Source: Gracilariopsis chorda
Lineage: Eukaryota > Rhodophyta > Florideophyceae > Gracilariales > Gracilariaceae
DNA: 34,116 bases
Assembly (NCBI GenBank): GCA_003194525.1
Contig: NBIV01000415.1
Coordinates: 1-34,116 of the forward strand
Direction: 5' to 3'
In this document: one piece after another, positions 3,121-34,116 of the stretch
Layout of the letters: the number at the start of each line of letters is the position of its first letter
Numbering within the stretch: the stretch's first letter is position 1
Position numbers and translations under genes: made by a program
The notes under the pieces: model-generated
What the model was told of the DNA's origin: nothing
Seen by the model: only the letters and a program-made list of their open reading frames with translations
Databases searched by the model: none

Positions 3121-4775
3121 TCACACACGCCCATACATCATCCCTCCCATGCCATGAGCACCATCACAAAGTCCAAGCAAGTGTCTGAACTTGATGTGCC
3201 TTTGCTTCGGAAGTGGCTTCGTAAGTACGTCAGCAATCATGTGTTCCGTTGGGCAACGTACTACTTTCATCATTCCAGACTCAACTCCTTGACGAACAAA
3301 ATGATAGCGTAAATCAACATGTTTTTGCGCGCCTGCTTCCAACTGCCCATTCCAGTACCCCAGTATTGTCTTCGTATACTGTAGTTGGATTCAAGGTTGG
3401 TCTTATCTGTAGCTCGCTCAATAAATTACGAACCCACTTGACAATTTTGAAACATTCAGAAACTGCAATGTATTCTGATTCAGTTGTGGAAGTCGCCACG
3501 CAAGATTGTTTCAAAGTTTTCCACTCAACCATGGTCCCCAACAAGAAGAGACAAAAACCACTTGTCGACTTTCTATCAACGTCATCACCAGCCCAATCTG
3601 CATCTGCGTAGGCATACAAGGTGCTTGAGCTATCTCCATCCTTCGCCAATATCTTCAGTCCAAGATTTCTAGTACCGTTGAGGTAACGTAGAATTCTTTT
3701 CACGGCATTCCAATGAGCAACTGTAGGATTGGCTTGGGCTCGGGATAGTATATTAACTGCATGGCAGATGTCCGGCCTCGTGCGTGTAGACAGATACAAC
3801 AGAGACCCAATAGCTTCCTGAAAGGTACTTTGACGCTCAAAAGGCTCTGCTTTCAATAACTTTGATGCCTTGTACGCAGTACTCATCGGAGTTGCAACAG
3901 GTTTCGAATGTGCCATCTGGAAGCGGTGTAGTATCTTCTCGATGCATGGTTGCTGGTGCAAAAGCATTCCGTTTGGATTCTGTTGCATGTACACACCTAA
4001 AAAGCTGTCTGATCTTGCGCATTCTTTCATATCAAATTCAGAGGCGAGTAATTGCTTCATCTCTCCGATTGTCTCAGCATCGTCGCTCATTAACAAGAGG
4101 TCGTCAACATAAAGTAGAATCCAGAGTCTGTGACCATCCTTGCGCATGTGAAAGAAGCATTGGTCGGTCAGGCACTGTTTGAGACCTAGCGCTAATAGTC
4201 GTTTTGTGAACAATCGACTCCATATAGCGTTAGGTTGCTTCAAACCGTAAATAGAACGGTTCAATTTCAGTACTTGGCCTTCATTTATGCCAATATCCAG
4301 CCCTTTCGGGGGTTGCATGTAGACAGGTGAGTCTTGATCTATGTGTCCATACAGAAAGGCAACACTTCACATCAAGCTGGTGAATCTCAAGTCCAAGGCT
4401 GCACGCCAACGTCAAGGCTACTCGGACTGTTCCACAGTCAGCTACCGGCAAGTAGACATGTGGTACATGGCCTTGTTGGCACCCTTTAGCAACCAATCTC
4501 GCTTTGTACCTTGAGACTGAACCATCGCTGCTCTGCTTCGTAGCAAACACAAACTTAGACCCAAGGACGTTCACTTCTGGTGGTTTGTCTACTACAGTCC
4601 AGGTCTGCATCGATCTCAAGGACGAAAGCTCATCCTGAATGGTCTGTTCCCAGTTTTTCCAGTTATCCAACTGCCTTGCCTCATATAGATCTCTTGGGAT
4701 GGGAACTGCATTGTCCTCTTTTGTGACAAGGGTACTGTGATTTGTGTCAGAGAACCGAGAGGGAGGTTGACGGTT
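3121..4775 (-). pseudogene. Copia-1 pol fragment: reverse transcriptase and RNase H
   Basis: This is the C-terminal half of a Ty1/copia polyprotein, which copies element RNA into DNA. Reading leftwards it starts near RQPPSRF (about 4770), the region just before the RT in copia elements. Next come the RT start (YKARLVAKG, about 4500), SIYGLKQ, the catalytic YVDD (about 4110) and the RNase H domain (YADADWAGD, then TTESEY). It ends at ADVLTKPLP and a stop near 3121, next to the LTR. It is broken by a frameshift near 4320 (after QLDVKC) and another near 3330 (after DNTGVLEWA). Gag, protease and integrase are missing, so the copy is truncated at its 5' side beside the telomere-like tract. The family assignment is firm; the copy is dead. 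Confidence 0.93.
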
Positions 4776-16600: not shown

Positions 16601-17480
16601 ATGTCGTCATATGGCATAGTCAATACTATCCCCGCTCCCACACTTGCGGGGGCATCACAACCGGAGCTAATCAAGTTTGAAGTGGAATACTCATCCTAAA
16701 CCGAGTGATTTAAGGACGTTAATTCCGCACAGCCAGCAAACCAGCAAGTTAAGGCTGCCTGCGTCAGATAGTCTATGAAACCGAGGATTTTAAACAGCTT
16801 GTGCGTACTGGGACGAGTCAAATGCGCCACCACAGCTGAAGAAGCAACTGATGATGCCGTTCGAGCCTGATTTGACGCACGTTTGGCATCTACTATCTGC
16901 GATCTAAGTGACTGCATCGAAGAAACCCTTTCGACGGTAAGATACAAGCAAATGCCTCGAGACCCATCTGGGGCCGCAGAGAACCTTGTTTTGGAAGCTA
17001 TTGCAGCCTTGGACGAGTACAACGCTTCAATCTTTATCATGGATAATGATCAATGTAGGGAACTTATCGCAAAGCTTGTGCGCAAATTGGGACCCGCAGG
17101 GCTCAGACAAATTGTGACTGATCAGATGCGTCTTTCGAAGAAAGAGCAGAAAGAAGACTTGAATTTTTTTACGAACACGATATCTACTCTTGCAGCGCAA
17201 GTGCATCTGATACAGTGCGCATGTTTGAAGCTCAAGCGTAAACTCACGCATAGGCGGAATAATGGAGGAAAGACTGGAAATTCTGAAGAGCCAGAGAGGA
17301 AGAAATCCCGAAGAAGCTCACGAACGCAGATTCTAGGGACCGAAGGCCCAAAGAGCAAGACGAAGAGAGCAACCGAGAAGTTTAAGGAGATGAGACACGA
17401 GCTTCTTGACAAGCACTTCGGAAGAAAGCTCAATAACAGGAAAACCGCGAAAGCTGCCATATTGCGTTCGGCAGCCAAGT
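16601..17480 (+). pseudogene. Gypsy-A gag
   Basis: The ATG at 16601 begins MSSYGIVNTIPAPTLAGASQ and leads into a gag-like region. That frame stops near 16697. A second frame, open from about 16883, continues with an alpha-helical, charged capsid-like segment up to LKLKRKLTHRR. It then becomes Lys/Arg/Ser-rich (KKSRRSSR), which would suit nucleic-acid binding. No CCHC zinc knuckle is visible. The assignment rests mainly on position, just upstream of the protease, and on general resemblance. At least one frameshift and several stops interrupt it. Confidence 0.65.
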
Positions 17481-17489
17481 CCGACCCAA

Positions 17490-17725
17490 ATGCTGAAGAA
17501 GGAAGGTACAGGATCCGTCTAAATAACATCGATACCGTAGCCTTGGGCGACTCCGGGGCAGACTATTTGACAATCCCTTCTGACGTTTTCGAGTCTGTTT
17601 CGTACCTCAAACTAGTGGCACTGGAACTCGAAACCCCCATGACTGTCGATACTGCGTTGAAGGCAGACGAACGAGTACCATCCACAACCGCTGCCACAGA
17701 CCGGACTACCCGTACGAGTCCGTGA
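17490..17725 (+). pseudogene. Gypsy-A aspartic protease
   Basis: The segment following the basic gag tail contains GDSGADYLTIP, the D-S/T-G active-site motif of a retroviral-type aspartic protease (codons near 17549-17563). In an active element this protease cuts the polyprotein inside the particle. The frame ends at 17725. The adjacent open frame 17727-18083 carries on in another register with ADTGLPEVLLRR and a helical connector. A frameshift close to 17690-17725 therefore separates protease from the RT lead-in. Confidence 0.75.
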
Positions 17726-18083
17726 AGTGCAGTTCTTTATTGCGGACACAGGATTGCCTGAAGTCCTTCTAAGAAGAGCCCTCTTGAAAGCCATGTGTTT
17801 CGATTTTGACGAGCATCTCCAATGCGTAGCCACACTCATCTACAGAACGTCGGAAAAGGAACTGCTAGAACGGAACTGTAGGCTGACGTCTGCAACCTAT
17901 CGAGGAGTGAGCTACACAGACGAAGAAGAGGATCGTATCGGGCTCTCGGCATGTCTCCAAGCCGGATTTGGAATCGACACCGTTGAAGAAATCAATGAAG
18001 CAATCAGGTCGGCAGCAGACAACGCCAAGGAGATCCGTATGTCTTCCGCAGGATTGGAGAAGTTGCACGCTCTTTTGGAATAG

Positions 18084-19283
18084 AACTGCAGCTGTTTTGG
18101 TATCAACTTGGGACCACAGCCCCCAGCCAAGGTGCGCTCCCTCTCCCTTAAGCTCGCCCCAAATGCTAAGCCGTACCGTGCGCCTCAGCGCCGGTATTCT
18201 CCCGTACAAGGTGTTTTTATCAAGCAAACCATTCAATAGATAGAGAAAATAGGCGCGGTGTGCAAGAAAGAGCAGGCAAGATAGGAATTCGCCGCACTGG
18301 CAGTTCCGAAACCCGGTATAGACAAACTTCGTTTTACTATCGACTTGCGCGGAACAAACGCATGAACTCTATCATTTCAGTCAGCAATGCCGCATCTGGA
18401 ATCACTGTTGTAGGACTGCGGAGGAAGCAAGTCTTTTGCCAACATAGACTTCACGCACGGATACTGGCAAATAACATTGGACAAGATATCTCAGGAGATT
18501 ATGTCAATTCAGACACCATTGGGAATCTACTCTCCGACCAGAACAGTCCAGGGAGGTACGGACTCTGGAAACCACTTTCAATCTGTGACACGGGAAAGTT
18601 CGAGGGCAGGGTACAGCGCATGCTGCAATGGTTCGACGACTTCCTTATCCACTCTGAGAACGAAGATCAGCTGCTAACGGACACTGCAGCATTTCTCAAA
18701 GTGTGCACAGAAGTGGGATTCAAAGTGAATCCAAGAAAGTCCTGGTTCTTCACAACAAAATTGAAGTTCTGTGGCAGGCTAATTTCATCCGAAGGTATTC
18801 AGGTCGACCCGAGAAACTTCGAGGTTTTATTGGCGATGAATGCGCCAAAAAGGGGAGGCGAGCTACAGCAACTGCTTTGTGCGGCAAACAGGATGAGGAA
18901 ATCCATTTCGGAGTACGCGCGTCTAGTAGAACTAGTACTCCAGCTCCTTGAAGAAGCGTGTAGGAAGGCCGGGAAACGAAGCAAGAAAGCACTCAAGAAA
19001 GTGCAGCTCAACTGGAAAGGCGAGCACTTCCACGCATTTGATGTGGTTAAAAGCCAATTGGCTGTCGCAACGAAGCTGTCACTTCCCAAGAAAAAACTAC
19101 AGAATCTTTCTCTTCACCGACGGTTCAGAAACACACTGGGCCGGAATATTGACCCAGTTTCCAACGAATTGGGAGAAAAAAGCACTCGAAGAACAAACAC
19201 ACGAACCTCTGTGTTTTTGATCTGGTGCGTTCAGTAGATCTTCAGAGAGGTGGAGTGTACCCGAGAAGGAAGGATTCAGGATC
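18084..19283 (+). pseudogene. Gypsy-A reverse transcriptase, with RT/RNase H connection
   Basis: The region starts with a block near 18110-18230 like the RT lead-in of gypsy elements. It continues with a DxxxGYWQ-like block in a shifted frame near 18440-18480. The catalytic motif reads WFDDFLIH at about 18629-18650, where most gypsy elements have YxDD. Downstream, FKVNPRKS, CGRLIS and LQQLLCAANRMR match the thumb/connection segment, including the GELQQ block. Multiple frameshifts occur between 18084 and 18600. The long open frame 18260-19237 is only partly in the correct register at its start and end. Confidence 0.85.
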
Positions 19284-19620
19284 GTGAAGTCAATGTGCAG
19301 ACTAGATTATCTCACCGTCGGACGAACGGTTTCCATATATACCGATCATGCGAACCTCGTGTACATCTACGAACCGTACGGCCACAACCTGGGCGTAGCT
19401 CGGCACATTACCAACAAACTCAACCGTTGGGCTCTGAAGCTGAATGCTTTTCGTTTCATAATTGAGCTCGTCTCTGGAGAACGAAACGTCTTGGCCGATA
19501 TGCTTACCAGATGGGCCATCCAAACAAAAAGAACCGTAGAACCCAGAACAATTGGAAACATACGATTACTGATGTCTGCACATATCAACCCTGGAACGAA
19601 TGATGACACTATTACTGGCC
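19284..19620 (+). pseudogene. Gypsy-A RNase H
   Basis: RNase H of Ty3/gypsy type removes the RNA strand during reverse transcription. Visible here are VSIYTDHANLVYIY, with its catalytic aspartate, NRWALKLNAFRF, and ELVSGERNVLADMLTRW. Together these make the usual 'TDH ... RW ... D..SR' succession. The N-terminal RNase H strand lies in another frame before 19237, so a frameshift sits between about 19130 and 19284. Confidence 0.85.
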
Positions 19621-19624
19621 CTCT

Positions 19625-20520
19625 ATGGAAGATATTATCAAGTCACAGCCTAGCAATCACACTCCCCTGCCAAAACGTTGCAGAAAGAGAGACGACGTCG
19701 TAAGAATTCCGACAGGACAGGTTTGGATAACAGAAAGCGATTTAAAGCTGCAGCTCAGAATCCTCATCGCTCATCACACCGGAAAAGGGGGACATCGGGC
19801 AACAGATCCTACCTTCGACACTGTCACTGCACATTTCTGGTGGAAAGACCTCCGAAGACACACTGTCGAGGTTACCCGCTCGTGTTTCCACTGTATCGCC
19901 ACCAGTCCAGTTAAGTAGTTCCGTGGCCTCTGGGTCACACAATTCATGCGAGCAAGCCCAAAGAACTCCTGCTTTTTGACTACTGTTACATGAATAAGAG
20001 AGAGAAGGGAAAACTGTACGCGCTGATCATCACAGACGAGCCTTCAGGCTACGTTTGGCTTAAAGACGCAGAGGAAGCTCACTCAGAATCGACAGCAAAA
20101 GCCTCAGTAGACTGGTTTGCCGTATTTGGAGTCACGAAGTCATGGATATCGGACCAAAGCAGTCACTTCAAGAACCAGTTCGTGAAAACACTGCCTCAAA
20201 AGCTCAAAGCACACCACCATTTCACACTACCTTACTGTCCGTGGAGTAACTGGTCAGTCGAAGTCGTTTTCCGGGAGCTACTAAGACCATGTCGAGCACT
20301 ACTGTACGAATTTCAAATACTGCATGTTCCTTGGCCTGCCGTCTTACCACTTATCCAGCCAGCCTTGAATAGCGCGTCAACAAGGAATCTCAATGGAAAA
20401 TGCCCGCTCACAGGGTTTACTGGACTACCGCAAGACTCGCCACTTGCCGCCATTCATAGAATCCAGGAAACGTTTTTGCGATCAAGGACGTCGACCGCTG
20501 TCCTGCGAATGCTCTAATAA
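19625..20520 (+). pseudogene. Gypsy-A integrase
   Basis: The integrase would insert the cDNA into host DNA. The N-terminal HHCC zinc-binding domain is visible at about 19760-19905, with HH..H spacing and CFHC. After a break between 19915 and 19990 comes the catalytic core: IITDEPSGY (first Asp), WISDQSSHF (second Asp) and SNWSVEVVFRELLR (Glu), so the DDE triad is recognisable. The frame ends at 20515-20517. Two in-register pieces are separated by a frameshift and stops near 19915-19985. Confidence 0.88.
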
Positions 20521-22534: not shown

Positions 22535-23055
22535 TTGATTTCATGCGCAGAACTGGCAGGTGATGGCTATCAAATCCAGTTTGACGTATCTGGTTGCTCC
22601 ATTGTGCGCCGTGGGAAAGCAATCAAAGCTTTCCGTAATGATGGAGTGTATCGTTTATGGACCAAGATAGAAAAGCACCGAGCACTTGTTGTGAAAGAGC
22701 CTGCTGGGCTACGACTATGGCACGAGAGACTTGGCCATTCTGGGAAGCAAAAGATCCGCCAAATCGCTAGGAAGAAGACAGTACTTGGATTGGACTTGGA
22801 TGAGAAACCAAAACCAGCCACCAATTGTTTAGCTTGTATCCAAGGGAAGATGACTCGCCGAAGTCTGTCAGAAAGAAGCCAAGACAGCGCTCGAATTGGG
22901 GATGTGATCTTCACCAATATATGTGGAACCTCCATACTGCAAATATTTCAGACAAGAAGTACTTTGTGTCATTTATTGATAAGAAATCAGGATACAAAAA
23001 CGTACGTCTCCTTGCGAAAAGGAAAGACTTGACTGAACATTTTAGGTGTTTCCTA
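22535..23055 (+). pseudogene. Copia-2 integrase start, truncated by gypsy-B
   Basis: Continuing in frame, NLISCAEL and then LRLWHERLGHSG mark the GAG-pre-integrase domain, with an HHCC finger that ends at CLACIQGK. After a frameshift near 22930 the integrase core begins with YFVSFIDKKSGY, containing the first catalytic Asp. The sequence breaks off at 23055, where the gypsy-B LTR starts. The rest of integrase, RT and RNase H should lie beyond the right edge of the window. Confidence 0.88.
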
Positions 23056-23877
23056 TGGTGCAATTCCCCAAAGGGGAAAAACACCGAAAGAAGTTCGGGA
23101 TCTTCCTCTCACGAGGTGAACCCAGTTGGGTAGAGCCCTCCCAGAGGTGTCACGGTGAAGCCGGTTTGTAAGACCAGGGACACCTGTCGCGACTTGCGCA
23201 GGGAGGTGAAGGCGAAGAATCGGTATCCGCGTGAGCAGGGTGTGATTCTCAGTAGAGGTATGTTTCCACGTAAGTGAGGGTATGTGAGCGGATGCGCACA
23301 CGAGAGCCGCGGATAGCGGGAGGTGCTACCCTAAAAAAGGGAAACGGAATGGTGAAGAGGAGGAAGAGAGGACGAAGTGAGTCGCGAGAGTGACGGGGGT
23401 GAACGGCGATGCCGGTAACAATATCCCTATACAGGGCGAAACACCAATGCAATTGGAACAATTATACTCCCAGTGATGGGTCCCTTTAGATGTACAAGGG
23501 GGTTAGATGTCTCGTGGTTTACGGCGTTTCCCTCCAAGGAGGAGTAGAGTACGCGCGCAAGCGGCAACAACTAGAGCCAATTCCCCAGGTTGGGGTCCCT
23601 TTTTGGGGAAGGTTTATTGGTGCGACGGCAGTGCGCCGTCGCACTAAGTACTAGCTTCCCAGAAATGGGTGTGAAAATAATAAATAATATTAACTAAAAT
23701 ACTCCACATTTCGTGGCAACATCCACTACTGTGGCCAACCGCCAATTGGCCCAAAACCGTGTCCCACGTGTCCATACCCACCATTGTGGGGCGTAGTTCA
23801 TACACACACTACACAACCGATAATATCGGGAAAACGATCAAGTACCCAGAATCCCTCCCTGAGGGCGTTGCACTTCA
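23056..23877 (-). repeat. Gypsy-B 3' LTR (left copy)
   Basis: The first roughly 390 bp align with 33742-34116. On the element strand the LTR would begin TGAAGTGCAA and end TTGCACCA, short imperfect inverted termini. The outer boundary at 23877 is inferred from the CA just before a run of nine C and from the PPT; it cannot be checked because the right copy is cut short. The predicted length is 822 bp. A 10-bp hairpin (GTGCGACGGC / GCCGTCGCAC) lies at 23620-23644. The five bases CCTAT at 23051-23055 would be the candidate target-site duplication. Confidence 0.85.
23620..23644. repeat. 10-bp stem-loop inside the gypsy-B LTR
   Basis: GTGCGACGGC at 23620-23629 and GCCGTCGCAC at 23635-23644 pair perfectly around a 5-nt loop. 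It is the strongest single hairpin I noticed in the LTR. It could belong to an RNA end structure, since the 3' LTR is transcribed, or be one of the general hairpins of this element. Confidence 0.8.
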
Positions 23878-23890
23878 TATCCCCCCCCCT
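23878..23890 (-). promoter_or_regulatory. Gypsy-B polypurine tract
   Basis: On the element strand this reads AGGGGGGGGGATA directly before the inferred LTR start TGAAG. A purine run next to the 3' LTR is the expected primer for plus-strand DNA synthesis. The position fits, and the run of nine G is the only long purine block nearby. Confidence 0.6.
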
Positions 23891-23934
23891 AAGACGGGAA
23901 AACGACCGCGGACGCGGAGGATTCCCAGACGGAA

Positions 23935-25615
23935 ATGGGTGATAAAAGCGCGTGCTCTGTCTCCGGTTCTCCGGTAAATCCCTCTGCACCAGAGTCACCG
24001 AGCGCACAAACGACAACAACAGCCACCATCGACAAGGGATAAATGAACGACGACAACAGCATCAACAACCACAGCCAACCTCCGAGGTCTCTCGGGCGAT
24101 ACACCACCGGTTCCCGGTCAGTTCCTCTGCCTCAGGGCGATCGACATCCGGTACAACTGGGGAGTATGGCTGCTGCAGCCGACCATCCCTTCGCACTACC
24201 ACCTTCGGTGGGATCCTCCGGAACCGCTCTGGCATTCAACTGGCCAACCTATAACACCCTGGTGGGGCTCAACCCGATGAATCGGAATCACGCGTCGCGC
24301 CTGCGCCTTGCCCAGTGGTTCCACCCGGTCGCTGTCCTCAATGAGGCATTGGTCACCGCTTCTGCGGATGGCTCAGACACCCTTCCGGGGGATCTGCCCA
24401 GGGCAGTCACCACATCGTGGGATTGGCGTCACCGGATTGCGATTCCGCGTCACCACCTCCGAAGGAATTCGGGCGAGACCGCCGCTGCGGCGCAGAACGC
24501 GTTGACGCGCATGGCATACCAACGGCAGAGCCGGGCTCCATTCGATGTACCGGTCCCACCGGAGTTCGGCTTCCACATTAGCCACTTCCGCACTCGCGGG
24601 GAGACCAGATACGGCGACAACCTGTTCTGCCTCGAGACCCTCGCTTGGAGTAATTTCCCCGCAGCGCGGCAAGAAGCCGTTTGTTGGGAGCGACCGATTA
24701 TTCGGGCGGAGTTCCGCTATCTTTCCCGACAATACCGGTCAACCTTCCTCCAAAACTTCATCCGCTACGAGCGGCGTTGGCGATCCCGATTCGGGTATTT
24801 CATCCCGTATCAGAACGTGGAGATAGAGCGGATTGCGCCGCCTCACCGACTAGGTCGGTATGTAGCACTCCCCGAGTGGTGGCGCTTCCATGAAGCCTGC
24901 CAGTGGTGCTACATAGAACTCCCGCCGGTACTTACGTACCTCGGTTCGCTGCTCATGCAGGCCGCGTGTGCGGGCAGCGATCCGAAACCTGGATCTTTTC
25001 ATCCCCCTTGGGAGGCAGGCCAACAATGAAGAGGTCCTCCAATTACTTGGGTACATCGACAGCGTTAGCTGGAGCGAGGTCCCGCTGGAGCAAAGCGGTC
25101 GTCTGGATGGCGGCAGCGGTAACACCGGTGGTCCGGGACTCGGTAGAAACACCGCCCTTGCGGGGGATTTTATCTACTTCGACCCCTGGGAGTTCCGGGA
25201 AATTTCCTCCGAGGAGGCGCGCGAGCTTCGCGATACGCCCCGGCATGTGCCGGAACACCACGCGGTGGGGTACGTCGATTCTGACGACTACTACCGCGCA
25301 TACGGCGGGGATGACCCAATGGTCGATAACGAACCGGAAGAACCCGGGGAGATGGACGTAGAGGAAACCGGCGCTAGCGCGGAAGCTTTCCCAGAGGAGG
25401 TATCTCCGGCCGAGCCAGCTGCTGACCGTTCGGCGGCAAGTGCCAGACCTTCTGTCCCCAGCGGGGTGACGGCGAATGAAAACGAAATCATCGCACGTTT
25501 CCTCCGGGGTGCCAGTCTTAGCGCTGCCGAGGTATCGGGGGATGTCACCACCATGGCGGACGCGTTGGTCTACCGCCTTGCTGGGGGTTATGCCCCGGAC
25601 GATGGGGGTGAGTGA
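23935..25615 (+). pseudogene. Opposite-strand extra gene of gypsy-B, about 560 codons
   Basis: This gene runs against the element's direction, between the chromodomain end and the 3' LTR. The ATG at 23935 (MGDKSACSVSGSPV) is followed by a TAA at 24040-24042. The same frame then continues to 25029 with a long, well-mixed protein rich in Arg, Trp and Tyr (FNWPTYNTLVGLNPMNRNHA and YERRWRSRFGYFIPYQN). Near 24960-25020 it switches by a +1 frame change into a second open frame ending at 25615. That second part is acidic (EPEEPGEMDVEETG) and ends in ADALVYRLAGGYAPDDGGE. I recognise no domain, signal peptide or membrane segment. An AATAAA follows 88 bp after the stop. Length and composition argue for a real former gene. 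Confidence 0.6.
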
Positions 25616-25681
25616 AACCTCTAGTCCAGTTTCCTGGTTCTTCTTTCCCTGGCTATGCCAGTTAGTGTAGTGTAGTATTGT

Positions 25682-25708
25682 GGGGAGCTAGCTGCTCCCT
25701 TGAATAAA
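25682..25708 (+). terminator. Hairpin and AATAAA after the opposite-strand gene
   Basis: A GGGGAGCTAGCTGCTCCC hairpin is followed by AATAAA at 25703-25708, 88 bp past the stop of the plus-strand gene. AATAAA is the standard eukaryotic polyadenylation signal. Its placement on the plus strand supports independent transcription of that gene, convergent with gag-pol. Confidence 0.5.
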
Positions 25709-25806
25709 CTTTCCCGTTTAGAACGGTGCTTCTCGGTTGAGTTCCCCGTCTTCGACGGACCTTGCCTTGTTATCCTTTCCTTTCGCTCTCCGCTCGCGCG
25801 GCAACG

Positions 25807-28563
25807 TTACCCAACTTGGGCATTAACCAGCGTGGCTGGGGCTGCAGTTCCCGTTTGACGGTGGTATCGCAGGACCTGCAACCGTGGGAGGTGTTCAATT
25901 GGCTTCTACGTATCCCCATTGGGGTCATACCCGTACCAGTGGACGCGGTATTGTAGAATACCATCCTGGTCCCAGGTGTGTCCGACAAGTCGGTCTACTA
26001 CGAACTCTCGTTCGTAGACCTGCCGGCCGTGCCGGGTGGTGGTTGTACTTCCTTGCGGGGGCTGCCCGCTGTGCGGTATAATGTCCCTTAGCAGGGTGTT
26101 CGGCGATAACTCCGGCGTTGCCGTGCGATGTGATAGCGGACGCTGCTCATGCGGGAAAATATCCCTCAAGAGGGTGTGTGGTGCCACGGTTTTCACCGGC
26201 AAGTCATTCCCCATTGGGGCAGGTTCATTTCCGCTTTCGCGGTATTGCGGGCGAACCGCCAGTCGGCGGGGGACTTGGGCTCCGCCTTCACGGTTGAGCT
26301 CACGAACCGCGAGTTTGCGGGAAGATGACCGCTCCTGCGTGGTCGGCATTTCCACAATCCCCTGGGGGGTCCCGTGCGACACGGTGATTGGGTGGCAAAC
26401 CGCCTCCCTGCCAGGCGCACGAGCGCTCTGCACCATACGTTCCGGCGATGCCGTGGTGTCCCCGGCTACTGACGGGTTGCCTGGGGCTAACTCCGGTACA
26501 CCGGTATTTTGGTCAAAATTCCCCTTTGGGAGGTGCCGGGCAGGTGCCGATGACACCCTTTTCAGGGGAATTGCCGCTAAGCGCGGTGCACCATCTCCAT
26601 GAGGAGGAGCAGCGTCCGGTACGACCAGTTTCGAGCGTGTGATGGCGCGCGTTTTTTCCGATTTCCTCGGTTCTTCGCCGCAACGTTGCGATGGTTGGCG
26701 CAAATTATTCCCCGCAGCGAAGGCTTCGATTCCGTCAATGACGGGAGGCGTTTCCGGTGCTTGCGAGCCAGGGCCTGAAGCTTCGACTGCGGCTTGGCTG
26801 CCTTTTTCCCCAGGTTGGGTGTGGGGATTTCCCAGCGGCGCTGGTGTATCTGGGCGCCTCTTCTCCGCAGGGCGCGGGTCTGATTGACCTGATTGAACCG
26901 CTTCCGCGGGGACTTCCGCCAACGGCGGCTTCGAGGCATCGCCCTGCTCAGGGGATTGGGGGCAATCGTCACCATACTTCCTTATCGGGGATCCTTCCCT
27001 GACGGGGGTGTGCGGTAGTTGCGCTTCAACTTCCCGTGTAGCACGGTATATTTTCCGCGTTTGTGGCGATGCCTCCGGGGATGGATCGGGCGATTGCCTT
27101 TCCGCTGCTGCGGTAATGGAGGGGGGCTTCTCGTTTTCCCGTGACAAACGGTGTACTCGCCGCTTTTGCGGGGCCTGCGCGTCTGGTTCCTGTTGCACAG
27201 CACTGCCCGGGAACGAAGGATTAGTGTCGCGTGACATACTCCGTGCTCCACGTTCAGTGTTCCGTATGTTACGGTGTGTTTCCCGTTGCGACGGCGATAT
27301 CGTTTCTCGAAAACGAGTGTTCTCCTCCCCCTCCTTAGACGGAGCGGCGGGATAAGGGATAACATTCCCCGCCTGGCGGGTATAGATGCGCGCCAGTGGG
27401 GCAGACGTGGTAGGGGCGGGCGCTGAGAGGCCCGAATTACCCGGCTGAGCCGGTGAGTCCGACAGAGTCGGTAGGTCTGAGAGTCCCCGGATGGGGTGTG
27501 GTAGTACCGTAGGCCTAGTACTCCCGGATGGTTCCGGTGTTGCAGAGTCCGTAGAAACGGGGTTGCCTGGATCCAGGACTACCTCTGACGAGGGAGGAGG
27601 GGCAAGGAAAACACGATCACGGGAAATCCGTTCGTGCGTGTCGCCCATCTCTACCACGACAGTGTCGGTGTTAACAGAGATGACCTTGAAGGGTCCATCC
27701 GCCACAAGCGAGAGTTTGTGACGCTTCTCCCGTTCCGGGTTGTAGTACTCCTTCCTTATGAAGACGTAGTTATTTGCCCGAATCGGGGGGGTTTTTTCTC
27801 GCAAGCGAGCGTCAAAATCCCGCTTGTAAGCGGCTTGGGCCCGTGTCATAGACTTCCGCGCAGCGGGGACCAGCTTGGAAAGCCATTGCTTCCATTGCTG
27901 CCGGTAGATACCCACAGGTGGGAAATTGTCCAAGGTAGCTTGGGGTTCCAGTGCCACAGGCGGGGGTGTTCTAGATAGAACCAACTCGAATGGCGAAACT
28001 CCGGTAGTCCGGTGTACCTGCGTATTGTACGCGTAGGTTACCGCATCAGCGTAGAGATCCCAATTCGTTGGGTGGTCAGCGACGTAGGAACGTAACGCCG
28101 CGAGTAACGTCCGGTTAAACCGTTCAACTTTCCCATTACACTGGGGGTGGTAGGTAGTCGTGAACAAGTTCTTGACATCCAGGATGCGACAAACATCCTG
28201 GAAGAACTTGCTCACGAACTGTTTCCTGTTATCGGAGAGCACCTCCACAGGGGGACCGTAGACAAAAATCCAGTGCGTCACCAGAGCCTGGGCCACCGTG
28301 AGAGCGGTTATCCTCCGAAGAGGGACAGTCCGTATCAGCTTAGAAAAGCGGTCGGTAATGACAAGTAGAAACTTGTTTCCAAGTTTCGTGGTGAGTAGTG
28401 GTCCGAGAATATCGATCGCGATAAACTCGAGCGGCGCCCTTGCGGGGAATAGTTTCATCTTCTTCGCATTTTTGCGGAGTTTCACGCGATTCTTCGCGCA
28501 TTCGCTACAAAACCGCACGGTTGCGTAGCAATCCACTGCCATGGCGGGCCAATAGAAATCCCT
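25807..28563 (-). pseudogene. Gypsy-B integrase with long linker and C-terminal chromodomain
   Basis: The integrase joins cDNA to host DNA. Numbered from the internal ATG at 28542, the finger ends with CSEC (13-16). The catalytic triad is D44 (FIAIDILGP), D104 (VLSDNRKQF) and E140 (NGKVERFNR), with normal D-35-E spacing. A GPF module (VADGPFKVISV) follows near 287. From about 325 to 830 runs a Pro/Ser/Glu/Arg-rich linker, probably disordered and unusually long. At about 835-878 a chromodomain begins (EFVVDRLVGHTWDQDG, then YRVHWYGYDPNGDT). It is interrupted by TAG at 25906-25908, where chromodomains have Trp. The same frame continues to a TAA at 25807. The reading frame is open from just after a TGA at 28564-28566. 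Only two point lesions affect this module. Confidence 0.93.
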
Positions 28564-29528
28564 TCACAGGGTTAGGTAGAGTTTCCTCACACCTGGGTGA
28601 CCTCCAATGGGGGCGTAGTGTGATAGATTTAACACCCGCGATTGCAGGGAATGTGGTACCACAATCTGTGGGCGGGCTTCGACCTTCCTTACGAGGTAGC
28701 CTTTGTCGTTTAACCCGAAAGGGAGATCTTCACCACCGTTGATACGGGCACGAATTCTCGTACAGAATGGGTCGCCGAATTGTTCTCGGATCATTTCTTC
28801 CGGTGATACCGGTACAAAGTTTCCCGGTAACGGGTTCTCAGATTTATCTCGCGATGCCAGTAGTTCGTCAAAATCAGCATCCTCGTCCCAGGTTTCTGGC
28901 CTAGCCTCATGGGCATATTCCGGATCGTCCGGGTCTATAGCCATGAAACATGGGACTTCATCATCCTCCGTTGGGAGTGCTTCCCCACTTGTGGGTAACC
29001 GCGACAAAGCGTTGGCCTGGGTGTTCTGCGCACCCTTTTTATAAATGACTTGAAAGTCATATTCCGCGAGGCGGAGTCTCCAGCGCATGAGGCGTCCCGA
29101 CGGGTCGGAGATATTCATTAACCACCTCAATGGGGAATGATCCGTGTACACGGTGAAGTGAATTCCCATAAGGTAGGGGCGCAGAGTGGTCATCGCCCAT
29201 ACGACGGCGAGGCACTCTTTCTCCGATACGGAGTAGTTCCGCTCATGAACATTGAGCGAGCGCGACCAATAACCAATTGGATGTCGTTCCCCCTCGGGGG
29301 TGGTTTGAAAAAGAGCACACCCGACTTGGTAGTCGCTCGAGTTCGTATCTACGGAGTATGGCAACCCAAGTTTTGGGAGATGTAGGATTGGTGCTGATGT
29401 GACAGCCTCCTTCAAGGAGTTAAAAGCTTCCGATTGCTCGGGCGTAAATGTTCCCAGTTTTGGGGGCTCCCCTTTCGCAACAACGCGTTTAGGGTCGCCG
29501 CAGTATCCGAAAAGTTCGGGATAAACCG
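28564..29528 (-). pseudogene. Gypsy-B RNase H and integrase zinc-finger start
   Basis: This continues the polyprotein after the RT. Visible motifs are YSVDTNSSDYQVGCALFQ (first catalytic Asp), ERNYSVSEKECLAVVWA (Glu), FTVYTDHSPLRWLM (Asp) and YKKGAQNTQANALSRLP at the RNase H end. An acidic connector follows, then the first half of the integrase finger (LSHYAPIGGHPGVRK). The frame closes with TGA at 28564-28566, just before a RDFYWP block where other gypsy elements usually have another basic residue. The frame differs from that of the RT, so a frameshift lies near 29450-29500. Confidence 0.93.
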
Positions 29529-31691
29529 TCAATAGACGTTGACCAGCCCCAAAAAGGAGCGCAGTTCCGTTTGAGTACGGGGTTCTTTCGCCTCAACGAG
29601 GGATTTGACTCGAGCTTTCTCGATCGCTAACCGTCCAGGACGGATAATGTGACCCAGATACTTCACAGTATCTGTGAAAAACTCGCATTTCCTCAACTTG
29701 AGGGTAATTCCCGCATCGCGGAGTACGGTCAGCACGTCTCGGACGTGAGTGAGATGGTCGTCCAACGAGTTGGAGAAGATGATAATATCATCAAGGTAGA
29801 CCAGACAGCTCCGCCACTTAAAGCGGTTGAGTAGAATATCTACTGCACGCTGAAAGGTGGCGGGGGCGTTGGTTAACCCAAACGGCATCCGCTTGAATCG
29901 GTACGTTCCTGCATGGCAGGTGAATGCCGTTTTATCGCGATCCTCCTGTCTGACAGGTACTTGCCAATATCCCCAATTGGCATCAAGGGCCGTGAACACG
30001 GTGGCGTCTCCAAGGGAGTCAATGCACTCGTCCATACGAGGGATGGGGTACGTGTCCCTGACAGTCACGGCATTGAGCCGGCGGTAGTCGACACAGAACC
30101 TCCAGGTTCCATCGGCCTTTAATGCCAGTACAACTGGGGATGCCCAGGGTGATTGAGCGGGCTCAATTACACCTGCGCGGAGCATTTCGTCCACTTGGGA
30201 CTGCTCCTCTTCCCGAGCTTTCGGACCTGCCCTGTAAGGGGGTTTTGCAACCGGTCGCGCACCGGGGATTAAATCGATCCGGTGTTCCGTTGCATTAATC
30301 TCGCCAAGCGAGCCATCCCACATTGTGGTGAATTCCCGTAACATAGTACGGAGTTTGTCGCGGTGCGACTCTGGCACGTGGCTGAAGTCCAGCGCTTCAA
30401 GTGCTTTTTCCGGATCAATCCGGTCGTTGCTCGATGGAGCATTGTCCTGTGGAACAGGTGTGGTTCGCAATTCCGAGTTACTCGGTATGTTCAACGCTGA
30501 AGTAGCTGTTTCGTCCCCCTCCTTAGACTTGACGTCTTCGGACGGCGGGGCGAACTCTTCAGAAGAGGTGGTAACTCCGAGTACATCGGCGGCTGTCATC
30601 TTTGTTGGCAGCATTCCCATAGGATGGGGGTTTACACTCCCAATTACTTGGTGTTTGACCAGATACTGGGGGTGTTTGCCAAGGTTGGTGGCAACCAATA
30701 TCCGGAAAGGAACATCCGAGGACATGGAGACAATTCCATTAGCCAGCGCCAGCTGGGATTTCTCGTACAACGAGGCGAGGGGTTGTATAACCCGAAGACC
30801 GTGTTGACGGGAATTTACCTGCACCCAGACTTTGGACTCAGCCGGTATAGAAACCGAGGCAGCGACGCGGAGCTTGGTGGACTCGCGGGACGCGGGCGGT
30901 GGTTCCTGCGCAGCAGGGAGCGGAACTTGTTCCCGAGAGGACCACTTTAGCGGGCGGCGAACAATCGGAACCGACGATCCGTCGTCAAGTTCTACACGCT
31001 TGAGGCGGGGCCTGATTGCGTCGACAAATTTGTCGCAGTAATCACATCCCAGTATCACTGGTGCTGCCAATGAACGGCAAACGATGAAGTCCAACTTCAC
31101 CACAGAGGTACCAAGTCTCACGATGAGGTCCACTGTGCCCACCGTTTGTAACAGATTGTTGTTCGCATCCGAAATGTCGGGGACCGCGTCAGAGCGGATA
31201 CGAGACCGCACAAGCGGGGGTAACAATGATTCCACAACAAAGTTGGGGCCTGCACCTGTATCCAGGACGGTGAGAAACCTCACCATAAACTGGGGGTCAA
31301 GGCCAAGGTCGGCATAGACCTTATAATTGCGTTTGGCCAAGACCAAGACTCTACCGGGAATCCGGGGATTTTTACTCCGTATCCACGGGCGACGCAACAC
31401 ACCGAGGTGCGCAGAGTCCGCGTCAGTGGTGTCTTTCCTCGAGAGGACTTTCACCGGGGAGCGAGACCAGGACGCCTCGGGCGCCAACAGCCTCGTTCTT
31501 GAGGACGCCTCTCCCAAAGGGGAGACTCCCTCAGTTAGTTTTAACGGATGGTTGCGTGATCTCCCGAATCGGGGTGTATGAAGCTTGCCGCGCACGCGGG
31601 GTCTGTGGTAGGGCATGGGAAAAGTCCGTTTTAGCACGGAGGTAGGAAGCCGTCGGGACGGAACGTTTCTCCTCTGGAGTGAGGGCCTCAT
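29529..31691 (-). pseudogene. Gypsy-B protease and reverse transcriptase
   Basis: This is a 720-codon open frame. A basic N-terminal stretch leads to the aspartic protease (FLTVLDTGAGPNFVV, residues 139-153, and the ILGCDY flap-end block near 213-218). A Ser/Pro-rich spacer follows, then the RT: SPWASPVVLALKADGTWR (514-531), CVDYRRLNAVT, the catalytic FTALDANWGYWQ (D570), MPFGLTNAPATFQ and YLDDIIIFS (632-640, with both Asp of the active site). The frame ends with TGA at 29529-29531, inside FLGLVNVY.RFIP; that position is commonly Arg in relatives, so CGA to TGA would explain it. The ATG at 31691 is inside the overlap with gag; the true entry may be by frameshift. It overlaps the end of gag by at least 160 bp. 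Confidence 0.95.
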
Positions 31692-33688
31692 AATTTGCCA
31701 CCACCTTGGCCATATCCTTCAGTGAACAAATACACTGAGGGGAGGTATGGCCATGGGCATAGCACAGGTGGCAAATGAGAGCCAATACCGCGACACGCGG
31801 ATTATTATTCCGAGTATCGGAGAAGCGAACCGCAGGGCGGGTGTCAGTCCATCCAGGCCGTTGATAACGGGATTGACCGTTTGAAAACGGGAGTCGTTGG
31901 GGTTGAACCCGACTGTTACCACCGTACAAAACGGGTCTTCCGTTCCCGTATCACGGGTCATCTTCGTCGTTGACGGTAAATCACTTGTGGGTATCGACAC
32001 ACCATCCTCCTGCACCAAATGCACGGTATCAAATCCCTGTCCAGGGTTCCCATCCGCGGTGAGCGGGAGAGAGGAAGCTTCGCTTTCCAGCAACAACGCC
32101 TTGGCGGATTTAGACCGATTGTTCGGAGTTCTTGCACGAAGTTCATCCCCTTCCGCTCGAGCGTGTTGGACCAGCTCGAGGTAGGTGATCCTCCGCTTGT
32201 CCTCCCGATAACGGGTAACTAAACTCCGGATTGCCGGGTCAAGACCATCAATGAACATGGTACTGCGCTCCCCAGCGGGGTATACGTTACCACATCTGTG
32301 GAAAGCCTTGTTAAGGCGCACCGAGTAATCGGTCTTGGTCTCTCCAGCACGCTGGCGTGTATCTCGCAAAGCGAGGATAGCCTGCTGAATAGCGGTGTTG
32401 GTGGCGTAGGAGCGCAGAAGATACTGCACAGCCTCCGGCCAGCAAGTAATTCCTCCCTCGGAGGCGCGAGAAGATCCTCTGACAGAGGTGTATTGGTCCT
32501 CCGCCACTCCCCGTAAGAAATACGGTAAAGCCAAATAGGCTTGTCCCTCATTCATACCGAGGATATCGGCCTCCGCTACAAAGCGGGATAGGAAATCCAG
32601 TACTAGGACTGGTCCTCTCCAGTAAAATACTGGTTGCGGAGCGATAGCTGCATTCGCTTAATGCATTCTCGCACCTTTCCCGTACCACGGGGCGTGCGTC
32701 CAAGTGACGAGGCTTCGAGCCGGTAGTACCGGTATGATAAAAGCTTCCGGTAATCCGGGTTTGTCGGTTTCAATTCCCGGAGACCAGGGTGTCTTCTCCC
32801 CTTCTGGCGGGTTCGGACCACACCTTCAGTGGCCGATGACCGCTTCGAGCGGGAGGAGTAGCTCGCTTCTCGTCCTCCGAGTCGGAGTCCGGGGAGCTCG
32901 AGCTAACCGAATGGTTTCGGGATGAGTCCGACGATGTCGAAGAACCGGAGTCCGAATATTTTCGGTGGTGTTTCCGTCGATGACGGCGTTTCTTCTTCCC
33001 AGCAAGCTGGTCGTTGTGCGATGCCTCGTTTACCGGATCACCCGGGATGGTTTGTCCATGAGGACGAACTGCTCCAGCGTCTCCAGGCGGGCACCAATCC
33101 GATCAAATCGGGCTTCAACTCCTTCGATGAAGACGGCGGGTTGTCCCAAACTCTCCAACACGGAGTTGACGTCAGACCGTAAAATACGGAGTTCCTCGGC
33201 GACCTCCTTTACAGGGGTTGCGGAGACCACCTCTTGGAGGGATTTTAGTTTACCCTAACAAGGGTGTCATGGCGCGGTCCACAGAGCGCGGACCTGGGAT
33301 TCCAGGGGAGTCCCCTGGGGGTTTTTATCGCCCGTTCCACGGGTGCTTGAAGCCGCGAAAGCGGGAGCAGGCCGGCGGTGCCTGGGGCACTGCCGGCAAC
33401 AGCCGGAGTCGATGCTGCATTCCCCTGCGGGGTGATAACGAGGGCAAAAAGGAGGTTCCGGGGTTCCCGGTCGGGGGGGGGTATCATTTCCGCGATGAAG
33501 CGGGGCCAGTACGGCTGGAACTTGTTCCGTATAGGGATACGGGGTACGAACCGAACTTCGGAAGTGTTTGCGTTTGTCGCAGGAGCGACTACGCGTAACC
33601 ACTGGCTCCGCATCGGAGGGATTTCTCGACATGAGAAAATACCGTTACGACGAGAAACGATCACGGAACTTCCGGTGAATAAAAACAA
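31531..33688 (-). pseudogene. Gypsy-B gag, frameshifted
   Basis: Gag would build the particle and bind RNA. Pieces in order from the right: an N-terminal frame without a clear ATG (33688-33245); a heptad-like helical piece with EVAEELRILRSDVNSVLESL (33230-33030); an Arg/His- then Ser/Asp-rich segment (about 32995-32870, RRHRRKHHRK followed by SDSGSSTSSDSS); the capsid-like core (32821-32555 and on to 31719) with MNEGQAYLALPYFLRGVAED and DYSVRLNKAFHRCG; and, in another frame (31929-31531), a CCHC zinc knuckle CHLCYAHGHTSPQC. Frame breaks lie near 32625 and 31925, with others likely between 33000 and 33250. The start codon is undecided. Confidence 0.85.
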
Positions 33689-33716
33689 ACCTCGTAAGAG
33701 GGAAAAACCAAAAAAC

Positions 33717-33736
33717 CGATTCTAGGTCGGAGACCA
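33717..33736 (-). promoter_or_regulatory. Gypsy-B primer-binding site
   Basis: On the element strand, five bases (CAAAG) after the inferred LTR end comes TGGTCTCCGACCTAGAATCG. Its complement ends in GGTCGGAGACCA and has a TTCTAG segment where a tRNA T-arm would lie, so it looks like the 3' end of a tRNA. I cannot name the tRNA. The spacing and the starting TGG are typical of gypsy elements. Confidence 0.6.
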
Positions 33737-33741
33737 CTTTG

Positions 33742-34116
33742 TGGTGCAATGCCCCAAAGGGAAAAACACCGAAGACGTTCGGTCTTCCTCTCACGAGGTG
33801 AACCCAGTTGGGTAGAGCCCTCCCAGAGGTTTCACGGCGAAGCCGGTTTGTAAGACCAGGGACACCTGTCGCGACTCGCGCAGGAGCGTGAAGGCGAAGA
33901 ATCGGTATCCGCGTGAGCGGGGTGTGATCCTCAGTAGAGGTATGTTTCCACGTAAGTGGGGAAGTGTGAGCGAATGCGCACACGAGGGCCCGCGGATAGC
34001 GGGAGGTGCTACCCTAAAAAGCGGAAGAAGGAAGGACGAAGTGGGGGTCGCGAGAGCGACGAGCAGATACGGCACATGCCGGTGGACAGGACTCCGTATA
34101 CAGGGCGAACCACCAA
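33742..34116 (-). repeat. Gypsy-B 5' LTR (right copy, cut by window end)
   Basis: It begins TGGTGCAATGCCCC and aligns with 23056-23452, with scattered substitutions and small indels. About 375 of an expected 820 bp are inside the window. Because the element is on the minus strand, this is the 5' LTR that would drive gag-pol transcription. Its promoter half lies beyond the window. Confidence 0.9.

Follow-up and report, generated by a model that had tools for sequence, protein, structure and literature searches.

Dense, exactly paired short hairpins with family-dependent stem letters in Ty3/gypsy-type retrotransposons of the red alga Gracilariopsis chorda

The window studied here is a whole contig of Gracilariopsis chorda, 34,116 bases long, of which positions 23056-34116 are occupied by a high-copy element of Ty3/gypsy type with an antisense gene (Table 1). 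The order RT, RNase H and integrase, flanked by LTRs, is that of Ty3/gypsy LTR elements, and recurs within one frame in a 1786 aa ORF of a sister family (family B). The first-pass annotation had taken the retrotransposon to be entire; instead, its right LTR, from 33742 on, leaves the end of the contig, and the part present aligns to the left LTR in two segments, one of 298 bp (92.3% identity) and one of 71 bp (78.9%). For the RT part, at least 39 other copies at 97-98% were found in the same genome, among the matches listed. At the protein level its closest named relatives come from red algae, and a search among viral_contigs found no relatives. A more distant gypsy group is also present in this genome. 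The domain order resembles the chromoviruses of the Ty3/gypsy group; the chromodomain match (PF00385) at the C-terminus of the integrase ORF, which may point the same way, is weak (E 7e-4, 19.8 bits) and, like that in L059 (23.5 bits), under the curated cut-off of 25.1. The gag ORF gave no match in a Pfam search; the gag ORFs of families B and C were seen by eye to end in a CCHC knuckle.

Table 1. Features of the element and of its hairpins, in window coordinates
Feature	Position	Strand	Basis or remark
Left LTR (3' in pol sense)	at least 23056..23447	-	direct repeat; matches 33742-34116
Antisense gene, split here into two ORFs (24043-25029, 24968-25615)	24043..25615	+	ORF list; homologs
Integrase ORF	25906..28542	-	PF00665 E 8e-10; weak C-terminal chromodomain match
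RNase H part of pol	28564..29532	-	PF17917, PF17919
Reverse transcriptase (RT) part of pol	29529..31691	-	PF00078 E 7e-37
Putative gag ORF	31719..32555	-	label given by eye: resembles family B and C ORFs that run into a CCHC knuckle
Right LTR (5' in pol sense), cut by contig end	33742..34116	-	aligned to left LTR
Hairpin texture	23056..34116	.	192 non-overlapping perfect hairpins (stem at least 5, loop 1-5), 23% of bases
Cluster of three CC..GG hairpins (27368, 27441, 27459)	27368..27471	.	exact hairpins
Cluster with six listed hairpins	28659..29377	.	part before 29029 inside block of 20-26% subfamily difference
Cluster 30446, 30473, 30616 inside RT ORF	30446..30628	.	exact hairpins
Hairpin in RT codons read as LDDIII	29778..29792	.	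hairpin list

The antisense gene is open in another copy of the element (L066), in which it encodes 595 aa, and a homolog of its protein (P0039, 488 aa) is 62% identical. Antisense genes close to the 3' LTR are known in some plant elements. We identified homologous stretches in sister family D, and also in B and, weakly, in E, where they lie at the margins of the sequences examined. The gene evolves faster than RT, with an identity between the element's own family (A) and family D of 34% over 192 aa, against 58% in RT. Its protein matched no Pfam family at E<=0.001 (the single sub-threshold match had E 0.16) and no PDB sequence up to E 1, and an AlphaFold2 model built on a 3-row alignment was unusable (mean pLDDT 33).

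We identified a strong excess of short perfect hairpins across the element, as the first-pass annotation had proposed, and more pronounced than it had supposed. All 13 hairpins that it had listed with 5-bp stems and 3-nt loops are exact, 11 of them starting with CC and ending with GG, as are its 7-bp stem at 29045-29060 and its 12-nt palindromes at 27566-27577 and 29142-29153. Region 23056-34116 contains 210 perfect stems of at least 5 bp closed by loops of 1-5 nt, against 48 in dinucleotide shuffles. Loop 3, at which a peak had been predicted, is the highest class (66 vs 8.9 in 20 shuffles), yet loops 1 (43 vs 12.7), 2 (44 vs 9.8), 4 (40 vs 7.7) and 5 (17 vs 8.0) are also raised, with loops 0 and 6-12 near expectation, and the constant is a span of 11-14 nt, peaking at 13, rather than loop length alone. 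Hairpins of the form CC...GG with a 13-nt span and at least 5 pairs occur 50 times (1.2 expected), and CC is the outer dinucleotide of 91 stems of at least 5 pairs and span 12-14 (3.6 expected); non-CC stems are in excess too (107 vs 43), and less conserved. With stems of at least 4 and spans of 11-15, the CC..GG type numbers 188 in 23056-34116, one per 59 bp. No loop consensus was found among the hairpins, Tandem Repeats Finder listed no tandem arrays in 23056-34116, and no period stood out in the hairpin spacing (best power 3.4 at 23.5 bp, spacing CV 0.76).

The excess extends through coding and non-coding parts. Five of the six ORFs surpassed codon-preserving shuffles (50 per ORF) by 3-4-fold, namely RT (47 vs 11.1), the integrase ORF (44 vs 12.5), RNase H (16 vs 4.0), gag (18 vs 5.2) and the first antisense ORF (22 vs 5.5), and the second antisense ORF showed no excess (4 vs 3.3). 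Hairpins had also been reported in the LTRs, which for stems of at least 5 bp holds for the right part (8 vs 1.8 in 33701-34116) and not for the left LTR (1 vs 1.3 in 23101-23430); 4-bp CC..GG hairpins are present in both. The 22 kb flank (1-22000), which contains a copia and another gypsy element, is without the texture, with observed and expected counts for loops 1 to 5 of 13/22, 21/18, 20/16, 14/17 and 11/19, and only loop 7 raised (30 vs 17). Of the two outcomes named beforehand as speaking against the texture, a density that shuffles would equal and a like density in unrelated DNA, neither was encountered. The element is GC-rich, as an origin by composition or chance would suggest, but L064, of like GC (57.6%), gives 34 hairpins against 35 expected; with the dinucleotide and codon controls exceeded and the CC..GG counts as they are, this explanation is vanishingly improbable and was rejected.

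Four other families in the genome (B, C, D and E), each represented by one 9-10 kb stretch and RT copies, with DNA identities of about 71-75% where alignable, share the hairpin excess. CC is preferred at stem positions 1-2 in families A (173 vs 9.6), B (75 vs 6.0) and E (34 vs 5.3), whereas family C prefers CC at 2-3 (57 vs 6.1) and family D prefers GG at 3-4 (43 vs 6.9). No doublet preference was found in the flank or in L063-L065, and the flank, like three further stretches of 8 kb, lacked the texture. The CC/GG bias that had been expected of a single element family is limited to a clade instead, two of the sister families having the doublet elsewhere in the stem. Family E favours CG as much as CC (40 vs 5.7 and 34 vs 3.9), and CC at 1-2 is also raised in family D (28 vs 5.6); with CC at 1-2 shared by A, B and E, this indicates a preference and not a strict password. 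Hairpin centres coincide between families more often than after shifting (A-B 6 vs 0.31; B-E 5 vs 0.07), but most differ in place, only 6 of 46 hairpins lying at the same place in A and B, which indicates that none of them is indispensable by itself.

The excess is confined to Watson-Crick pairing. Pooled over the five families, perfect stems number 681 against 204 expected (+477), whereas stems with G.T pairs number 253 against 268 (-15, sd 14) and those with A.C 298 against 310 (sd 22), other mismatches ranging from -13 to +31. The two strands are equal in folding energy (mean z -2.09 and -1.99; flank -0.30; 18 windows each). If the hairpins are read, the lack of a wobble excess and the equal folding of both strands would suggest that the form read is most likely DNA, or else both RNA strands.

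Comparison with 48 other copies shows the stems of family A to be conserved. Outside a recombinant block, variants found in at least five copies fall on 0 of 411 CC stem sites, against 47 of 2871 sites outside stems (Fisher p 0.003). Against sites of the same base, codon position and CC/GG context, family A stems carry 24 variants in at least two copies (48.0 expected) and 13 in at least five (31.1 expected). At four-fold sites, the variants in at least five copies (0 of 74 in CC stems, 9 of 467 outside) are too few to be informative. Singletons in stems outside the block are also fewer than at matched sites (28 vs 48.6), so that a lower stem mutation rate could explain part of the conservation; we tentatively attribute the scarcity of common variants to selection, though part of it may be mutational. 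Within the block, in which subfamilies diverge by 20-26%, an identical stem is kept in the other subfamily by 7 of 13 CC and 2 of 15 non-CC hairpins (p 0.04), and in the reverse direction by 4 of 10 CC (one gapped) and 2 of 9 non-CC hairpins. A replicate in family B, with four copies and L051 as reference, showed no depletion of variants (stems 14/266, outside 82/1717).

As to mechanism, on which the first-pass annotation made no proposal, we tentatively favour, at somewhat below even confidence, the view that the hairpins are dispersed self-tags and that an element-encoded protein reads them, most likely as folded DNA but otherwise on both strands. Each tag would span 11-14 nt, with a stem of 4-5 bp and a loop of 3-4 nt; the place of its preferred C:G doublet in the stem would depend on the family, the other stem letters being free so long as they are exactly paired. 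A preferred doublet with free but paired letters is what a protein reading a folded hairpin would require, contacting some bases and leaving the rest to keep the fold. In the case of DNA, the hairpin might be extruded or single-stranded; otherwise both strands would be read as RNA. Tags, at about one per 60 bp, would be placed across genes and non-coding parts through synonymous choice and kept by selection in lineages still moving. Such a protein would most likely be encoded by the element itself, and the fast-changing antisense gene is the leading candidate. Such tags might mark the element's own DNA or cDNA against the host or rival elements, and the marking could serve anti-silencing, as VANC does in VANDALs, selective packaging, or integration. 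A bolder form of this view, to which we give somewhat less credence, is a structural self-code, in which the clade would write itself in hundreds of hairpins over its protein code, the doublet position acting as a family password read as DNA by an element protein that tells self from host and from sister families.

A close likeness is to the VANDAL elements of Arabidopsis, in which dense, short, family-specific motifs mark self and are read by the element-encoded VANC, motif and protein having changed together among related families (PMC5735166). The motifs read there have a fixed sequence (YAGTATTAY, AGTTGTCC), are arrayed in one orientation and lie for the most part in tandem repeats outside coding sequence (PMC5735166). 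The marks described here are likewise short and dense, and absent from the flank and three host stretches, yet A, B and E share CC at 1-2, and the reader protein, a VANC-type anti-silencing role for the antisense product included, is a candidate only. They differ in being a fold with a preferred doublet and varying stem letters, dispersed in codons of a retrotransposon and without a tandem array. In the early promoters of bacteriophage N4, a protein reads a short DNA hairpin in which some stem bases are fixed and the free ones just keep the hairpin (PMC4496689). This likeness is found here as a statistical preference; N4 has three such promoters near the left end of the phage genome and a known reader, whereas the element has hundreds of hairpins throughout and a putative one. 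The first-pass annotation knew of no described element with such a texture, and our survey of the literature, chiefly on retrotransposons and red-algal genomes, found neither such an element nor a dense self-tag of this kind described.

If the tags are read, they would constitute a second code in a mobile element, superimposed on that for its proteins, with one mark per 60 bp and distinguishable families. They would then allow direct tests of how selfish DNA identifies itself and of how hairpins are recognised, be it in reverse-transcribing particles or in the chromatin of eukaryotes, and would offer a sequence-only aid for assigning elements and recombinants to families.

The main rival, which we consider unlikely but by no means negligible, is that the hairpins are dispersed packaging signals in the genomic RNA, each binding a Gag subunit as in MS2 and parechovirus, with the family letters keeping RNA in its own particles. 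RNA packaging hairpins carry loop or bulge motifs and tolerate G.U, and RNA readers normally accept G.U within stems. Here, the loops are without consensus and the code sits in the stem, G.T stems show no excess (-15, against +477 for perfect stems), and structure is equal on both strands, all of which differ from such signals, the G.T and strand results also disfavouring an RNA-only structure. The family-dependent letters would suit a choice made in packaging, the CCHC knuckles of the family B and C gag ORFs also speak for this reading, and many degenerate stem-loops throughout coding RNA, as in MS2, STNV and parechovirus, are an established design (PMC6281560, PMC5431903, PMC4836477). A general genome-scale RNA structure, for example for escape from RNAi or slower translation, would account for folding z values near -2 across the element but needs none of the absent wobble excess, the strand equality, the fixed 11-14 span or the preferred letters, and is very unlikely.

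A mutational origin, in which the RT of the element or a repair process would create palindromes and restore them through template switching (quasipalindrome correction), appears improbable. Perfect stems can arise and persist in this way, according to two accounts (PMC8794818, PMC8604942), and the exact pairing without a wobble class and the positional turnover are an expected trace of copying, as the fewer stem singletons outside the block would be of mending. However, the one-armed multi-base changes and spacer inversions that we sought gave it no support. Between families, where three arm differences were present, all fell in one arm in 5.9% of the 85 comparisons of hairpins, compared with 15.6% of the 1347 windows taken at random; with 2, 4, 5 or 6 arm differences, the values are near random ones, and the only spacer inversion among 53 distinct loop variants with intact stems is a trivial A/T change in a 1-nt loop. 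Outside the block, a stem of at least 4 bp is gained in 11 and lost in 10 of the 20 clusters with at least three changes, a balance indicating no net making of palindromes; no stem in the diverged block is perfect by compensation, and the family-dependent letters are left unexplained. Quite improbable, too, are ordinary dimeric sites, at which a protein would recognise a pair of CC/GG half-sites in B-DNA, separated by one turn of the helix. Centres of CC and GG do lie 10-11 bp apart at spans 12-13, and the site is identical on both strands, but the inner pairs differ between sites yet are matched within each, a feature that recognition of half-sites would not demand, and are themselves variant-poor (variants in at least two copies: 15 against 28.6 expected).

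The window is one entire contig (34,116 bases) of a 91.3 Mb genome, and its end cuts through the right LTR of the retrotransposon under study, which is therefore incomplete. This element belongs to a family (family A) identified at no fewer than 124 places in the genome at 96-100% identity, the window copy included. The window copy is broken, with pol divided among several ORFs and the antisense gene between two, and match coordinates indicate that it lacks approximately 85 bp, between query positions 149 and 150, that are present in 39 other listed copies. Frames around the RT are open up to 1887 aa in other copies. A domain search returned a weak chromodomain match, and among 38 proteins the nearest relatives with a named organism were from the red alga Agarophyton chilense, such as the database protein P0006 (66% identical across 68% of the query), which makes a related red alga the probable host.

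Features of the element and its neighbours in the window
Feature	Position	Strand	Remarks
Copia-type fragment	3314-4318		RVT_2 match
Second gypsy-like element, decayed	16883-20517		weak RVT_1 and rve matches
Copia-type fragment	22535-23032		gag_pre-integrs match; hairpin element begins directly after it
Retrotransposon start	23056		adjoins the second copia fragment
Gag-like ORF, RT, RNase H, integrase		minus	Ty3/gypsy order (domain matches)
Antisense gene	24043-25615	plus	between integrase and left LTR (3' LTR in the pol sense)

The hairpin texture of the element is real. All thirteen hairpins listed in the first-pass annotation were exact, eleven of them with CC..GG ends. Within the element, stems of at least 5 bp with a loop of 3 nt numbered 66 against 8.9 expected from shuffles, and 210 against 48 in dinucleotide shuffles when loops of 1 to 5 were pooled, while counts for loops of 0 and of 6 or more were close to the shuffled expectation. 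In total, the element holds 192 non-overlapping hairpins, which take up 23% of its bases. As had been suggested for a genuine texture, hairpin density also exceeded synonymous-codon shuffles, in which the protein is unchanged and the hairpins are lost, in the RT (47 against 11.1), integrase (44 against 12.5), gag (18 against 5.2), RNase H (16 against 4.0) and antisense ORF1 (22 against 5.5), the sole exception being antisense ORF2 (4 against 3.3, no excess). The longest perfect stem in the element (loops 0-9) has 10 bp and a 5-nt loop, and lies in non-coding sequence beside the left LTR (23620-23644).

Hairpins with CC..GG ends were enriched at span 11 (46 against 5.7) and span 12 (80 against 5.8) for stems of at least 4 pairs, and at span 13 (50 against 1.2) and span 14 (18 against 1.2) for stems of at least 5 pairs, thus the basic hairpin has 4-5 bp in the stem and 3-4 nt in the loop. 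Including span 15, there are 188 such hairpins, one per 59 bp, for which we found no regular period along the element; no loop consensus was found among the element hairpins. Bases flanking the stems across 23056-34116 were T on both sides in 35 cases (3.7 expected) and A on both sides in 21 (4.3 expected).

The texture was absent from the flank, the comparison proposed at first pass: neither the copia RT fragment (1 against 3.5) nor the second gypsy-like element (12 against 14.4) had a hairpin excess. Stems of at least 5 bp with a loop of exactly 7 numbered 30 in the flank (1-22000), with 17 expected. In three other genome stretches of 8 kb, short stems numbered 51, 34 and 38 against 34, 35 and 34 expected; the mild excess in the first of these, a host stretch, was without the CC type.

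RT-like stretches whose alignable parts share approximately 71-75% identity with the window form four other families (B to E). One copy of each exceeded codon shuffles (26 against 8.4, 23 against 9.3, 22 against 8.7 and 17 against 8.8), as did whole stretches of 9-10 kb, counted in a single copy per family, relative to expectation (B 131 against 41, C 111 against 37, D 122 against 43, E 68 against 35). The preferred letters differ: CC occupies stem positions 1-2 in A (173 against 9.6), B (75 against 6.0) and E (34 against 5.3), and positions 2-3 in C (57 against 6.1), while D prefers GG at positions 3-4 (43 against 6.9). Since D is also enriched in CC at positions 1-2 (28 against 5.6), and a CG end (40 against 5.7) matches CC in strength in E, the family letters are strongly preferred rather than obligatory. 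The suggestion that the bias is confined to one element family stands as regards the flank and the three other stretches, in which these doublet preferences are absent, but not as regards the four sister families, which have the excess in common, two of them (C and D) with the doublet at other stem positions. Hairpin places mostly differ between families, with a minority common above chance (A-B 6 against 0.31; B-E 5 against 0.07); A-D had two in common, B-D and D-E none.

The main rival explanation is that the hairpins are dispersed packaging signals, RNA hairpins read by Gag. A stem maintained as RNA should tolerate G.U. Across the five families pooled, perfect 5-bp stems exceeded shuffles by 477, whereas stems with one inner G.T (-15, sd 14) or one A.C (-12, sd 22) showed no excess, and some other mismatch stems were slightly raised (T.T +31, A.G +29). 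Packaging signals would thus require an RNA stem that refuses wobble. Folding z was equal on both strands (-2.09 and -1.99; flank -0.30; 18 windows each), and the wobble and strand results together favour DNA, or a requirement for both strands. We also sought signs of template switching, which is described as able to create and maintain perfect stems (PMC8794818). Differences between families were not loaded on one hairpin arm, the sole spacer inversion was a 1-nt loop, and stem gains and losses were alike in 20 change clusters (11 and 10), all of which argue against this origin.

We compared 48 other copies with the window over 28029-33191. In the block 28029-29029, 23 of the 48 were only 74-80% identical to the window and 25 were window-like; elsewhere identity was about 95-99% (500-bp windows). 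The two subfamilies are 20-26% apart in this block, the trace of an exchange by recombination within the integrase/RNase H region. With the block included and stems of at least 5 bp, singleton variants were alike in stems (8.1%), loops (8.6%) and outside (8.2%), but variants in at least five copies were rarer in stems (3.5%) than in loops (8.0%) or outside (7.8%). CC..GG stems had the lowest share (1.2%), compared with 12.6% for control stems whose loops measured 8-29. With the block left out, such variants occupied 0/411 sites in CC stems against 47/2871 outside (p 0.003), 8/431 in control stems and 3/428 in other stems. A matched test (base, CC/GG context, codon position) that also counted 4-bp stems gave 14 against 26.6 in the block and 10 against 21.4 elsewhere for variants in at least two copies, and 12 against 22.6 and 1 against 8.5 for those in at least five. 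Singletons in this test were low outside the block (28 against 48.6; in the block 15 against 9.6), therefore part of the stem conservation may be mutational. Within the block, the other subfamily's copy kept an identical stem at 7/13 CC hairpins against 2/15 other hairpins, and in the reverse direction at 4/10 against 2/9. Variants were not depleted in stems among four copies of family B.

A preferred doublet combined with free but exactly paired letters is what would be expected if a protein reads the hairpin. Phage N4 early promoters include a hairpin read by protein (PMC4496689), and resemble the element's hairpins in having some constrained and some free-but-paired stem letters. VANC/VANDAL provides a dense, family-specific mark across a whole element (PMC5735166), and is similar in that density. 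Both systems differ from the one here. Literature searches in an open-licence library yielded no account of a texture like this one.

We propose the product of the antisense gene as a candidate reader. Domain and structure-database sequence searches gave no recognised domain for this protein, and its structure model was not usable. The gene is open in another copy (595 aa; L066:84-1871), and has one homologue in the protein database (P0039, 488 aa, 62%). Homologous stretches occur in family D (34% over 192 aa). Family B also shows homology, as does E with a weak match (E-value 0.002), in both cases at the margins of the fetched DNA; the contig of family C stops short of the gene's place. The antisense gene is faster-changing than the RT, with 34% identity between A and D against 58% in the RT.
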